Shown piece after piece: positions 43,464-48,016 of a stretch of 64,000 nt of DNA. Position numbers and translations under genes: made by a program. Numbering within the stretch: the first letter of the stretch is position 1; each line of letters begins with the position of its first letter. A model generated the notes under the pieces. The model was not told where the DNA came from. It was given only the letters and a program-made list of their open reading frames with translations, and did no database searches. This stretch comes from Sulfurovum sp. (GTDB taxonomy: Bacteria > Campylobacterota > Campylobacteria > Campylobacterales > Sulfurovaceae): assembly GCA_030949325.1 (NCBI GenBank), contig JAUZSQ010000093.1:1-64000 (forward strand), written 5' to 3'.

Positions 43464-45140
43464 TTATGTCAACTTTTTCAACACGCCTACAATATGGTCA
43501 GCCACCCGAAAGGCATTGGCATAGATAGTCCATGTATAGGCTACAGAACCTCCTGTAGGCATAAAACTACCATCCGCTATAAAGAGGTTACTCACATCAT
43601 GGGATTGACAATATTTATTGAGTACGGAGGTCTTGGGGTCATTCCCAAAACGGCATCCCCCTGCGATAAGGTTAGACGGAGGAGAGGAAGAGACCCCTGA
43701 ATAAATATTCTTCGCTCCCATTTCTTCTAGTATCTTCTCACACTTTGTAGCAATATATTCACCTACTTTGACATCTTGTGGATGCCCTTCCACACGTAAC
43801 TTACCCACAGGCATACCATATTTATCTTTGTGCTTTTCATCTAAGGAGACAAAACAATCATCATGAGGTAACCAATCATTAAAGATTTCAAATCGGATGC
43901 TTTTTTGTGTTTGTAAACGTTCTTTCACGTGTCCACCCAAGGCTTTACCCCAAACCAATTTACCATCAACTTCATTGTCCTTACGCGCACGGTTAATAAG
44001 GTTTTGATGCTCAAACATAAACTCTACCGAGCCTCCTTTGAATTTACCGTCCCACCAATCATCTATAAAGTACCAGTCTAAAACACTACGATTGACAAAG
44101 AGTCCAGTAGTCATAAGCTCATCAAATTTTATCTCTTTTAGGTCTGCTTTGTGCAATTCCCCTTGCCCAGACCCTCCTCCTGAAAAAATCAAATTCTTAC
44201 CCACTTCTCCAGAGCTGTTTCCCAGTCCTGAAGGATGATACTTGTTATGAGAATTGAGCAATAATCTAGCACTCTCATGTGCCTGAGCAGCCACGACAAA
44301 AATCTTGCCTTCAATATGTTTTTCTTTGCCTGTAATGGTATCTATCACCACTGCATATTTGACACTATCTTTGGCTTCGCTGTGCAAAGACTTGACATGA
44401 GCATTGGTAATTAGTGTCAAGTTTCCTGTAGCCAAGGCAGGTTGGATAAGGGCTTCTCGTGAGCTACCCTTCGCTCCAGAGCTACAACCATAACTGCCAC
44501 AAAGGTTGGAATAATAACAGGCATCACGCCCTGCTTTATTTTGAGAAAGTACAGCCCGAGGGGTCACCAAAGGAGTAATCGATAAGGCACGACAACTCTT
44601 ATCCAGTAGCTTCACGACAGCATTCTCTTTCGTAGGAGGTTGGCTAAAGTTTGGCGTACTGCGTTTGGGTTCAAAAGGATGTGCTTGGTAATGTCCTGAA
44701 ATACCTACCAATTCTTCACTCAAAGCATAATACGGTTCTAACTCTTCATAAGAAATAGGCCAATCGACAATATTGGCACCTTCAATGTCACCATATTTAC
44801 TCTTGAGCCTAAAATCATCAGGGTGCAAACGATGCAACATACCTGACATAAAATTGGAAGACCCTCCTACGACATTGCCATTCCAAAAGCTCCATCCTGA
44901 GACATACGTGGGCTTAGATACCCATTTACCCTCTATCTTTTCATCAATGGTATGGTATTCATCAAAAAGGTTAGGTGTAATCAAATCTCTACGACAATAC
45001 GCCAATTCATCTTTGGAAAAATCTTTTCTATTAAGAAGCCGTCCTTTTTCTAAGACAGCCACCTTATATCCTGCCTTACACAAAGTATAAGCCACTGCCC
45101 CACCACTTGCACCCGAACCAATAATCACAACATCATACAT
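43464..45140 (-). CDS. GMC-family FAD oxidoreductase
   Basis: 558 residues. N-terminal FAD site VVIIGSGASGGAVAYTLCKAGYKVAVLEKG, GGSSNFMSGML near residue 95, and the C-terminal FIADGSFMPTGGSVAYTW. Resembles the large subunit of gluconate 2-dehydrogenase-type alcohol/sugar dehydrogenases. It has no signal peptide and begins two bases after the small subunit gene, whose Tat signal could carry the pair across the membrane. Substrate unknown; no cytochrome c gene adjoins. Confidence 0.87.
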   Translation of the reverse strand: MYDVVIIGSGASGGAVAYTLCKAGYKVAVLEKGRLLNRKDFSKDELAYCRRDLITPNLFDEYHTIDEKIEGKWVSKPTYVSGWSFWNGNVVGGSSNFMSGMLHRLHPDDFRLKSKYGDIEGANIVDWPISYEELEPYYALSEELVGISGHYQAHPFEPKRSTPNFSQPPTKENAVVKLLDKSCRALSITPLVTPRAVLSQNKAGRDACYYSNLCGSYGCSSGAKGSSREALIQPALATGNLTLITNAHVKSLHSEAKDSVKYAVVIDTITGKEKHIEGKIFVVAAQAHESARLLLNSHNKYHPSGLGNSSGEVGKNLIFSGGGSGQGELHKADLKEIKFDELMTTGLFVNRSVLDWYFIDDWWDGKFKGGSVEFMFEHQNLINRARKDNEVDGKLVWGKALGGHVKERLQTQKSIRFEIFNDWLPHDDCFVSLDEKHKDKYGMPVGKLRVEGHPQDVKVGEYIATKCEKILEEMGAKNIYSGVSSSPPSNLIAGGCRFGNDPKTSVLNKYCQSHDVSNLFIADGSFMPTGGSVAYTWTIYANAFRVADHIVGVLKKLT

Positions 45141-45142
45141 CT

Positions 45143-45650
45143 TTATACTCCCAAATATTTGGTTTGAGGTCTTGGAAATCCACCATCAGACCCTACAAAT
45201 TTCCACCCTGCTTCAGCTACGTTAGAACCATAAATAGGGTCACAAAATAGTGCTTCCATACTCAAAGTCATGATACGCGATAGCCATGCACTTCCATAAC
45301 GTGTCGTCTCATAGTCACGTAAAGAAGCTTCTTTTTGGCTCTGCGTCATAGCCAAAAATTTTCCTTTTTCTCTACTGTCTAACTCTTTGGCACCTTCTAA
45401 CACAAAGGCTTTTATATCTTTATCAAAACTAGCATGCTTCATCGTATCAAATAAAAATGCTGTCATCTTCATCGTCTTAGCAGAAGGTAAATCATTGCCT
45501 TGGGGAAACAAATGTTCTTGCACAGCCTCTAAAATAGCTTCTCTTTGTCTAAATTGCTTTTCAAAAGACGCTGATGCTCTCTGCCCTACTATACGTTGCA
45601 AGTCCCAACACCGAACCCCAAACCAAAAATTGTCTTCGTTCTATACGCAT
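45143..45650 (-). CDS. Gluconate 2-dehydrogenase subunit 3-like protein with Tat-type signal (frameshift)
   Basis: About 168 residues when joined. From ATG 45650, MRIERRQFLVWGSVLG is a twin-arginine-like signal, ending near TYSRA. One extra T near 45565 shifts the frame; the rest reads FEKQFRQREAILEAVQEHLFP to FPRPQTKYLGV, with YGSNVAEAGWKFVG typical of the family. Small subunit paired with the GMC oxidoreductase directly downstream. Confidence 0.8.
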
Positions 45651-45734
45651 ATTTTATAGCCTTTTTTATCATTATATTTACTCTTTGTGTATTTGGGGTG
45701 TAATCACTACACACTTTCTACACAAACATTCTAC

Positions 45735-45740
45735 TATACT
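45735..45740 (+). promoter_or_regulatory. Candidate -10 for the small Cys-rich lipoprotein
   Basis: TATACT 31 bases before the ATG at 45771, in the divergent gap with the oxidoreductase genes. No clear -35. Confidence 0.4.
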
Positions 45741-45770
45741 TACTTTATCAAAATATTTAGGAGATACACC

Positions 45771-45941
45771 ATGAAACACATCATTTTTTCTTCCCTTATA
45801 GGATTTGCCCTACTTACCTTCACAGGTTGTACGCACTCAGAAGATGTAAAAGTCAGTAAATGTCAAGCCAAGAAATGCGATAAAGCCAAAAAAGAAAGCA
45901 AAAAGTGCCAATCCAGTGGTAAATGTAGTACAGGATATTAA
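45771..45941 (+). CDS. Small Cys/Lys-rich lipoprotein
   Basis: 56 residues. ATG after TTTAGGAGATACACC. Lipobox LTFTGC with C20. The short mature part has four further Cys in K-rich context (SKCQAKKC, KKCQSSGKCSTGY), a pattern suited to metal or thiol chemistry at the membrane. Not a family I can name. Its composition resembles the EGKCG peptide encoded at 46524. Confidence 0.7.
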   Translation: MKHIIFSSLIGFALLTFTGCTHSEDVKVSKCQAKKCDKAKKESKKCQSSGKCSTGY

Positions 45942-46053: not shown

Positions 46054-46485
46054 ATGATGATTCAAGCAAGCCATGCATATATAAGAGCTCTCCTTAGTCA
46101 AGGACAAAGTCTTTCATTGTTGTTCGCTAGACTTGCTGTAGCCTATGGCTTCTATGACCCTGCTATGCAGAAATGGTCAGATATAGGTTCAGTGGCTACT
46201 TGGTTTGAGTCTCTGGGTATCCCCTTTCCTACACTCCATGCCTATATGGCAGCGAGTACAGAAATATTAGGTGTGATTCTCTTGACTTTAGGTCTGTTTA
46301 CAAGAATCATCTCTATTCCTCTCATTGTGATTATGATGGTAGCTATTGCTACAGTACATCTTAGCCACGGATTCTCAGCTGGTGATAATGGCTTTGAGAT
46401 TCCACTGTATTATATGTTGTTTTTAGCCCTCTTTGCTTCTCTTGGAGCTGGAAAATTTAGCTTTAGATTATCTATTGTTTGGTGA
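46054..46485 (+). CDS. DoxX family membrane protein
   Basis: 143 residues, four predicted membrane spans (about 20-35, 63-83, 87-108, 115-133). DoxX pattern: FARLAVAYGFYDPAMQKWSD, then TEILGVILLTLGLFTRI. DoxX proteins are linked to thiol/redox balance, and members are part of hvf/bufferin-type operons. The EGKCG peptide gene follows after 38 bases, which supports a shared function here. Confidence 0.85.
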   Translation: MMIQASHAYIRALLSQGQSLSLLFARLAVAYGFYDPAMQKWSDIGSVATWFESLGIPFPTLHAYMAASTEILGVILLTLGLFTRIISIPLIVIMMVAIATVHLSHGFSAGDNGFEIPLYYMLFLALFASLGAGKFSFRLSIVW

Positions 46486-46523: not shown

Positions 46524-46727
46524 ATGAAAAAATTACTCATACTCTTAAGTGCATTTGCACTGACATTAACACTCGCAACAGCTGAAGGTAAATGTGGTGA
46601 AGGTAAATGTGGCGATAGCAAAACAGAAAAAAAATGTGACGCTGCAAAGGCTGACAAAAAATGTGCTGCAGGTAAGTGTGGTGAAGGTATGAAAGACGCA
46701 AAACCTGAAACACCTGCAAAAGATTAA
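46524..46727 (+). CDS. Exported EGKCG-motif peptide, HvfA/bufferin-like
   Basis: 67 residues. AAAAGGAAAT before the ATG. Signal peptide 1-20 ending ATA. The mature part starts directly with two motifs, EGKCGEGKCG (residues 21-30), then KKCDA, KKCAA and GKCGEG: five Cys in all, otherwise Lys, Ala, Glu and Gly. EGKCG is the motif that DUF692 (MNIO) enzymes convert to copper-binding oxazolone-thioamide groups in HvfA-type peptides. No DUF692 or HvfC-like partner gene is in the window, so modification would need distant genes or not occur. A strong terminator follows. Confidence 0.72.
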   Translation: MKKLLILLSAFALTLTLATAEGKCGEGKCGDSKTEKKCDAAKADKKCAAGKCGEGMKDAKPETPAKD

Positions 46728-46856: not shown

Positions 46857-47276
46857 ATGAAGTACTTACTTATTGCTATGATACTACTCTCTTTTAACGG
46901 ATGTCAAGATAAAGAAAATGATGCAAAAGTACAAGCAAAGCATGATGCAAAAATAGCTGCCCAAGCTAGAGCTGAAGTACTTGCAGAATTTGAAGCCCAT
47001 AAAATTGCCCGTGCCAAAGAAATCCAAACACAACAAGCACGCATAAATGAAAAAGCCTCTAAGCCTATCATTGATACCAATCAAACCAAACAATTTTTAC
47101 GTGACCTTAGCCAAACAGTTTCCCATGAGATAGATATTGCTAAGGAATACATAAATATTGAAATCAATCAAACCAAAAACCTTCTTGAAGTATGGAACCA
47201 AAAAATAGAGAATTTTGTCAAAGAATTTGATACGGTCACAACGCCAACAGAAATTAATACAAGCAAAGGACATTAA
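46857..47276 (+). CDS. Small helical lipoprotein
   Basis: 139 residues. TATAAT at 46820-46825 upstream. Lipobox SFNGC with C16. The mature part is an Ala/Lys/Glu helix (KHDAKIAAQARAEVLAEFEA) followed by an amphipathic region with NQTK repeats (residues about 75 and 106). No domain recognised. Its stop overlaps the next ATG by one base (TAATG), so it is coupled to the FTR-rhodanese gene. Confidence 0.65.
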   Translation: MKYLLIAMILLSFNGCQDKENDAKVQAKHDAKIAAQARAEVLAEFEAHKIARAKEIQTQQARINEKASKPIIDTNQTKQFLRDLSQTVSHEIDIAKEYINIEINQTKNLLEVWNQKIENFVKEFDTVTTPTEINTSKGH

Positions 47277-48016
47277 TGCAAAAAATAGATATGAACTCAG
47301 ATGAATTCCAAACAGAACTAGAAAAAACCTCCAAATTCGTAGATAAAGTCTACAACCAATTTGGATGGGTACCCAACCCAAATGAAGAAGTCAACGAGGG
47401 TGTCACTATGGGACTTGCTAGAAACAAGCTCATTTATGGCAAAAGATTTTGTCCCTGTTTCATGGTGATTGGTGAGACTAAAGAAGAACAAAAAACAGCA
47501 GATAACCGTATCTGTCCATGTAAACCTGCCATAGAAAAAGAGATTCCAGAAGATGGTCTTTGTCACTGTGGTATCTTTTGTACAGAAGATTATGCCAAAG
47601 CACAAGCCACGCATGATGAAATAGAAGAAGTCGTACACGCACACTCCCAAGGTCTAAGCCAAGCCCAAGCCCAAACCCTACTAGAGACAGAACAACTCGG
47701 TGGAGATGAGCTAGAAGCACTCATAGAAGCCAAAAGCCTTGGTATGATAAACTTCACCCTAGTCGATACTAGAGAATACATGGAATTTCAAATGAGTCAT
47801 ATTGTAGGTACAGATACACTCCTACCTACTTCACAATTCTATGCCAAAGTAGAAGAAGAACTCTCAGGTAAGAAATCTGAAGCTATTGTCTTGTATTGTC
47901 ACTCAGGAAGCAGAAGCTACCAAGTACAACAAGCCATGAAAGGTCTAGGATTTGAACATGTTTGTAACTTACGTCCTGGTATTATCGGATTTTCAGGAGA
48001 AACGCAAAGAGGATAA
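47276..48016 (+). CDS. Ferredoxin-thioredoxin reductase catalytic domain fused to rhodanese
   Basis: 246 residues. N-terminal FTR beta-type domain with the CPC-CPC-CHC signature: C59/C61 (FCPCF), C80/C82 (ICPCKP), C96/C98 (LCHCG), which bind a 4Fe-4S cluster and the redox disulfide. The linker is Gln/Ala-rich (about 110-150). The C-terminal rhodanese has VDTREYMEFQMSHI and an active loop YCHSGSRS with C208. The fusion suggests electrons from ferredoxin reduce a persulfide or disulfide handled by the rhodanese. No FTR alpha subunit is encoded nearby. Confidence 0.85.
   Translation: MQKIDMNSDEFQTELEKTSKFVDKVYNQFGWVPNPNEEVNEGVTMGLARNKLIYGKRFCPCFMVIGETKEEQKTADNRICPCKPAIEKEIPEDGLCHCGIFCTEDYAKAQATHDEIEEVVHAHSQGLSQAQAQTLLETEQLGGDELEALIEAKSLGMINFTLVDTREYMEFQMSHIVGTDTLLPTSQFYAKVEEELSGKKSEAIVLYCHSGSRSYQVQQAMKGLGFEHVCNLRPGIIGFSGETQRG

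Follow-up and report, generated by a model that had tools for sequence, protein, structure and literature searches.

The closest described relatives of the locus reported here are the oxazolin system HvfABCX of Haemophilus influenzae and the Buf_EGKCG bufferins or captophorins, which are 5-thiooxazole copper peptides. Peptides with EGKCG motifs have been treated as substrates of the MNIO (DUF692) enzymes. MNIO genes were absent from 67 of the 2583 genomes with Buf_EGKCG (PMC12452194, Table 3), and these rare cases were counted and then set aside, with the suggestion that their peptides need no modification or are non-functional (PMC12452194).

The stretch of DNA analyzed here (the window) comprises 64,000 nt of a contig of Sulfurovum sp. 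(JAUZSQ010000093.1, assembly GCA_030949325.1). A preliminary description of it had reported an exported EGKCG peptide beside a DoxX gene, and had left two alternatives: modification by an enzyme acting from another locus, or function of the peptide in an unmodified form.

The exported peptide and its operon

The open reading frame at 46524-46727 (forward strand) encodes a Cys/Lys peptide of the HvfA/Buf_EGKCG type, 67 residues long and with five cysteines. Its sequence is MKKLLILLSAFALTLTLATA followed by EGKCGEGKCGDSKTEKKCDAAKADKKCAAGKCGEGMKDAKPETPAKD. The Sec signal, as judged by eye, ends directly before EGKCGEGKCG, which forms the N-terminus of the predicted mature peptide, as described previously. 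DNA able to encode EGKCGEGKCG was present at a single site in the 2.53-Mb genome, and at none when the reversed pattern was used as a control.

The proposed kinship with HvfA held. The peptide matched NCBIfam NF050137 (KCGExKCG_twice, HvfA family) with 22.5 bits, above the cut-off of 19.5. It did not reach the full-length equivalog NF050188 (16.1 of 95). Matches to DUF1482 and similar weak Pfam matches lay below the cut-off and were disregarded. The oxazolone-thioamide ligands named in the preliminary description have to be replaced, as the published modification of EGKCG peptides is now assigned as 5-thiooxazole (PMC12668002, PMC13419390).

The DoxX gene (46054-46485, forward strand) lies 39 bp upstream of the peptide gene in the same operon and encodes a membrane protein (PF07681, 69 bits). 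It scored 112 bits with the HvfX model NF050144 (cut-off 80), which confirmed that a DoxX of the bufferin-operon type adjoins the peptide. Orthologs were found in 55 Sulfurovum genomes.

Further upstream, the open reading frame at 45771-45941 (forward strand) encodes a 56-residue, Cys/Lys-rich peptide with a lipobox and a sub-threshold match to the ChrA-related model NF050125. A lipobox was recognized by a regular expression in 36 of 41 Sulfurovum peptides encoded upstream of DoxX. This lipopeptide is probably a second, membrane-anchored member of the system.

The peptide gene is followed by genes for a small predicted lipoprotein resembling a coiled coil (46857-47276, forward strand; family F8) and for a fusion of the ferredoxin:thioredoxin reductase (FTR) catalytic domain with rhodanese (47276-48016, forward strand; PF02943, 125 bits; PF00581, 48 bits; family F9). 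Both are kept downstream of the peptide operon in Sulfurovum.

Conservation of the peptide motifs

The preliminary description had made the meaning of the motif depend on its conservation among orthologs, and the refuting outcome did not occur. Among 34 distinct peptides encoded just downstream of a DoxX ortholog, 32 of them from Sulfurovum, GKCG was kept in all 34 (32/32 in Sulfurovum), and the pair GKCG-x-GKC in 32, usually at the C-terminus. The most constant element in the relatives is a C-terminal GKCGxGKCG pair rather than the literal EGKCG. The window peptide has its pair at the N-terminus and is without the C-terminal one.

In the Sulfurovum peptides, Lys precedes Cys at 217 of 225 cysteines, and CX4C spacing is common. 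Gly follows only 46% of these cysteines, versus 96% in MNIO-linked peptides. The low frequency of Cys-Gly would suit plain thiolate binding in Sulfurovum. We considered it as a footprint of MNIO loss and rejected this, since the GMC-linked, MNIO-free lineages other than Sulfurovum (see below) keep Cys-Gly at 83-100%. Relaxed Cys-Gly is therefore not diagnostic of MNIO loss.

Absence of MNIO and HvfC

The earlier observation that the window contains neither a DUF692 gene nor its partner could be extended to the whole genome and the genus. A search for PF05114 (DUF692/MNIO) found no gene in the 2.53-Mb assembly of the window (115 contigs, 93% complete) or in any Sulfurovum genome, including four complete genomes in single contigs. 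HvfC (DUF2063, PF09836) was likewise not found in the genome of the window or in any other Sulfurovum genome. The search detected MNIO in relatives at E values of about 1e-85 to 1e-96.

Within the family, 3 of 175 genomes contained PF05114, and DUF2063 was found in the same three only. Two of them showed the canonical order peptide-MNIO-HvfC-DoxX, where the contig and DoxX allow it to be read. Among 397 Campylobacterota genomes, 25 contained MNIO above the cut-off, in the order peptide-MNIO-HvfC and often followed by DoxX. Two loci of genus g21 gave sub-threshold PF05114 matches (18-19 bits, positions 117-213), which probably represent another TIM-barrel family.

One of the two original alternatives, an MNIO acting from another locus, is thus excluded for Sulfurovum, complete genomes included. 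The fragmentation of the window's assembly and the existence of unlinked precursors and MNIOs elsewhere (PMC12452194) might be cited for an MNIO that is distant or was lost in assembly gaps. Four single-contig genomes without one refute this for the genus at the sensitivity of the PF05114 search, and we give it practically no credence.

A GMC flavoprotein and its twin-arginine subunit

The peptide had been described as an orphan. This did not stand, because a conserved partner, a pair of genes at 43464-45650, lies in the window and is transcribed divergently. The intergenic region between the two transcription units spans 45651-45770. The product of 43464-45140 (reverse strand) is a flavoprotein of the GMC family with the fold of a fructose/glucose dehydrogenase large subunit, according to Pfam matches (PF05199/PF00732), the fold model and alignment. 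The product of 45143-45650 (reverse strand) resembles subunit 3 of gluconate 2-dehydrogenase (G2DH3; PF13618, 45.3 bits, cut-off 23.4).

G2DH3 bears a twin-arginine signal, MRIERRQFLVWGS, of which the RR is nearly invariant in the alignment. From this signal, GMC and G2DH3 are expected to leave the cytoplasm in a folded state and to reach the same compartment as the peptide. The window copy of the G2DH3 gene carries a one-base frameshift in a TTTT tract near 45,565 (region 45560-45650, reverse strand), which falls between the twin-arginine signal and the mature part. It is intact in relatives, and the frameshift is either an assembly error or a recent slippage.

The structural model of the window GMC (pLDDT 79.5, pTM 0.86) best matched, in Foldseek, the large subunits of fructose and glucose dehydrogenases (E 5e-38, TM 0.75 to fructose dehydrogenase). 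The three-Cys cluster motif CX5CX4C was invariant in an alignment of 24 rows. We expect the protein to bind FAD and, judging from its homologs, also an iron-sulfur cluster. For G2DH3 (model pLDDT 87), neither the fold search nor a search of PDB sequences by its profile gave a match.

The PDB set includes mutants of fructose dehydrogenase at N1146, H1147 and N1190. In glucose dehydrogenase (6a2u), the corresponding His and Asn have the same spacing as H1147 and N1190, 43 residues. When the GMC subfamily was aligned to 6a2u, Leu was found at the equivalent of H1147 and Ala, Pro or Thr at that of N1190; the neighboring Asn was kept. With both catalytic residues replaced, the window GMC probably does not act as a sugar dehydrogenase. 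Identity with the gluconate dehydrogenase of Campylobacter jejuni was also considered and rejected: the Campylobacter type keeps the catalytic His and sits on a very long branch of the GMC tree.

The same GMC subfamily and G2DH3 were also found in the gammaproteobacterium Thalassotalea (two loci), directly after a thioredoxin-like CXXC gene and with no EGKCG peptide nearby. This arrangement hints at a chemistry of thiols, and at transfer of the genes from one phylum to another.

Linkage and co-occurrence of the peptide with GMC/G2DH3

Family and genus names were assigned from a few named records; for Sulfurovum, these were the nearest named relatives of the GMC. All 55 Sulfurovum genomes with the DoxX ortholog also had G2DH3. 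In 52 of them it was divergent and within about 1 kb, as in the window; in the other three it was on another contig.

Outside Sulfurovum the arrangement varied. The order peptide-DoxX-G2DH3-GMC, all co-directional, was found with DoxX and G2DH3 touching in genus g21 of family f3 (four loci) and genus g38 of f2 (one locus), and with the two close together in Sulfurimonas of f7 (four loci) and in f6 (one locus). Two loci had peptide-G2DH3-GMC without DoxX. Divergent GMC/G2DH3 lay beside the peptide in Sulfurospirillum (five loci) and in genus g29 of f6 (one locus). Altogether the peptide was seen with GMC/G2DH3 in seven families (f1, f2, f3, f6, f7, f8 and f10). Among 80 GMC loci of named genomes, a Cys peptide was within 1.6 kb of the pair in 34 and within 4.5 kb in 45. 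A contig assigned to an alphaproteobacterial MAG, probably by mis-binning, also carried a Sulfurospirillum-like peptide-G2DH3-GMC locus.

To quantify co-occurrence, genes were called as open reading frames and G2DH3 was scored as present at 84 bits or more. This gave 71 of the 397 Campylobacterota genomes, 66 of them MNIO-free. The 57 of these 66 in which an EGKCG-type peptide was found span seven families, and the peptide is in some cases in trans. In 35 genomes it was found nearly always at the GMC/G2DH3 locus itself. A peptide profile was then run against 29 MNIO-free genomes whose GMC was unlinked; 22 of them carry the peptide elsewhere, and a 23rd (G053) gave a weak match. Nine of the 66 had no clear peptide. 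The profile is short and Cys-rich, and weak matches (E greater than roughly 1e-5) are possibly spurious; GMC-free genomes gave none. None of the 54 tested genomes with neither G2DH3 nor MNIO, which were picked from output lists and not at random, carried the peptide.

The same pattern was seen within genera. In g17, g18, g33 and g56, the peptide was present in 29 of 30 genomes with G2DH3 and in none of 26 with neither enzyme (Fisher p 4e-15, with no correction for phylogeny; shared ancestry is ignored beyond the genus). On the GMC tree, well-supported branches account for 16 or more changes between the linked and unlinked states, some of the 'unlinked' cases being due to short contigs. This indicated that the association is not one inherited, frozen gene order. 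The linkage of the peptide to GMC/G2DH3 is well supported.

Two lineages are examples of the parts lying apart. In MNIO-free Arcobacteraceae of genus g17 (loci L328-L348), a canonical peptide with SCGAGKCG repeats stood alone between YceI-like and MATE-like genes, and GMC/G2DH3 was elsewhere in the genome. In genus g53 (five loci), peptide-DoxX pairs had KCNGEKK-type repeats ending in GKCGQGKCGG, and GMC/G2DH3 was again unlinked.

In one Sulfurimonas MAG (L261), peptide-MNIO-HvfC and G2DH3-GMC were about 3 kb apart on one contig, and so the two enzyme types can coexist. GMC/G2DH3 was also present in 5 of the 25 MNIO genomes. Strict mutual exclusion was therefore rejected, and GMC/G2DH3 is not a strict replacement of MNIO.

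A second DoxX paralog was found in the same Sulfurovum genomes (six loci, among them L054 on G000:C56), followed by an FMN-binding, glutamate-synthase-like (GltB-like) protein with an N-terminal membrane segment. The latter protein is encoded in the peptide operon in genus g11 and in Sulfurimonas. It was considered as a common partner of the peptide and rejected: it is absent beside the Sulfurovum peptide operon and accompanies the DoxX paralog instead (L054-L057). Its partner pattern is less consistent than that of GMC/G2DH3.

Discussion

We interpret the locus as an MNIO-free relative of the EGKCG bufferin/captophorin copper-peptide system with GMC/G2DH3 as its functional partner, a reading that we judge about evenly balanced between right and wrong. 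The copper role of the window peptide would follow by analogy with its relatives. The peptide would be exported by Sec, and its sister encoded upstream would be lipid-anchored. The Lys-Cys motifs of both, often in CX4C spacing, would be suited to soft metals, most likely Cu(I). DoxX of the HvfX type would reside in the inner membrane. A periplasmic GMC, exported by means of the Tat signal on its G2DH3 subunit, would take the position of the MNIO/HvfC pair, which is cytosolic and depends on O2.

The substrate of GMC/G2DH3 would most likely be the cysteines of the peptide, oxidized after export. We speculate that such oxidation could either install the copper ligand or cycle the redox state of the thiols, and that DoxX might be an electron outlet to quinone. 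The linkage would also be compatible with an enzyme that shares a pathway with the peptide and does not act on it. MNIO needs O2, and a flavin enzyme would suit hosts with little of it. The stronger proposal is that GMC/G2DH3 is an exported flavin/iron-sulfur oxidase of a new peptide-modifying class, which converts EGKCG cysteines to copper ligands in the periplasm without MNIO. This is less likely than not, and we advance it tentatively. If it is true, the (micro)anaerobic Campylobacterota would have a route of their own to metallophores resembling captophorins.

The main rival is that the peptide is an unmodified, metallothionein-like buffer which binds Cu(I) through plain Cys thiolates, while GMC/G2DH3 shares a stress or respiratory programme with it and leaves it untouched. 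It would fit the absence of any known modifying enzyme in Sulfurovum, the nearly constant Lys-Cys with frequent CX4C, and the relaxed residue after Cys. At that position, most residues other than Gly or Ala prevented the MNIO pair FonBC from acting in vitro (PMC12668002), and MNIO-less precursors perhaps need no modification (PMC12452194). This rival is nonetheless doubtful, since it leaves unexplained why the peptide tracks GMC/G2DH3 even in trans, and why Cys-Gly is so well kept in the other GMC-linked lineages.

A module for thiol or sulfur redox is less probable still. Here DoxX, FTR-rhodanese and the Cys peptides would handle sulfane sulfur or oxidative thiol stress, with copper secondary. 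The mycobacterial SodA-DoxX-SseA complex offers an analog, the hosts are sulfur oxidizers, FTR-rhodanese is kept downstream in Sulfurovum, and the Thalassotalea GMC lies beside a thioredoxin-like protein. On the other hand, FTR-rhodanese is missing from the peptide loci read in other families, where GMC/G2DH3 is present, and the peptides are of the copper-peptide type. We find it very improbable that GMC/G2DH3 has an ordinary function as a dehydrogenase of gluconate or sugars and lies beside the peptide by accident. Such an annotation would follow from homology, from the fold match to fructose and glucose dehydrogenases, and from the assignment of C. jejuni Cj0414/Cj0415 as a gluconate dehydrogenase (PMC4178425). 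Against it stand the replacement of the catalytic His and Asn throughout the subfamily, the very long branches that separate it from the His-bearing Campylobacter type, and the repeated finding of the pair with the peptide, linked or in trans.

Our reading of an MNIO-free system with GMC/G2DH3 as partner can be set beside published work. The MNIO-less genomes in PMC12452194 likewise have an EGKCG precursor without MNIO. The main text of that paper discusses no partner for them and does not mention GMC, gluconate or Sulfurovum. No relevant report that combines GMC oxidoreductase, gluconate 2-dehydrogenase subunit 3 and DoxX was found in the part of the literature covered. What had been a rare exception is here a whole genus, Sulfurovum, together with many genomes in six other families, with the peptide, no MNIO, and one flavoenzyme pair. 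A modifying role of GMC/G2DH3 would make the pair a new class of enzyme; without such a role, the system would still set metal binding by the peptide apart from its modification.

Compared with membrane-bound fructose and glucose dehydrogenases (PDB 7w2j, 6a2u) and with C. jejuni Cj0414/Cj0415, the enzyme pair shares the GMC fold, the three-Cys motif and a twin-arginine subunit of the PF13618 type. It differs from the sugar and gluconate dehydrogenases in its replaced equivalents of H1147 and N1190, in the lack of a cytochrome subunit at its loci, in its link to EGKCG peptides and in its distance from the Campylobacter type on the tree.

Like HvfABCX and the bufferins or captophorins, the Sulfurovum system has an exported peptide with repeated (E/A)GKCG and a DoxX of the HvfX type. 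Unlike them, it has GMC/G2DH3 instead of MNIO (HvfB) and the DUF2063 partner (HvfC), and most non-terminal cysteines of its peptides are without a following Gly. The canonical peptide-MNIO-HvfC-DoxX loci of other Campylobacterota (for example L033, L050, L077, L087 and L172) have the same type of peptide and a DoxX 62-72% identical to that of the window. They differ in having MNIO and HvfC, and none of the canonical loci read has GMC/G2DH3 in the cluster, except for the neighboring pair in L261. In sulfur-oxidizing Campylobacterota, the consistent association of the peptide with an exported flavin enzyme, and not with the iron enzyme MNIO that modifies such peptides elsewhere, points to an unrecognized version of the copper-peptide system.
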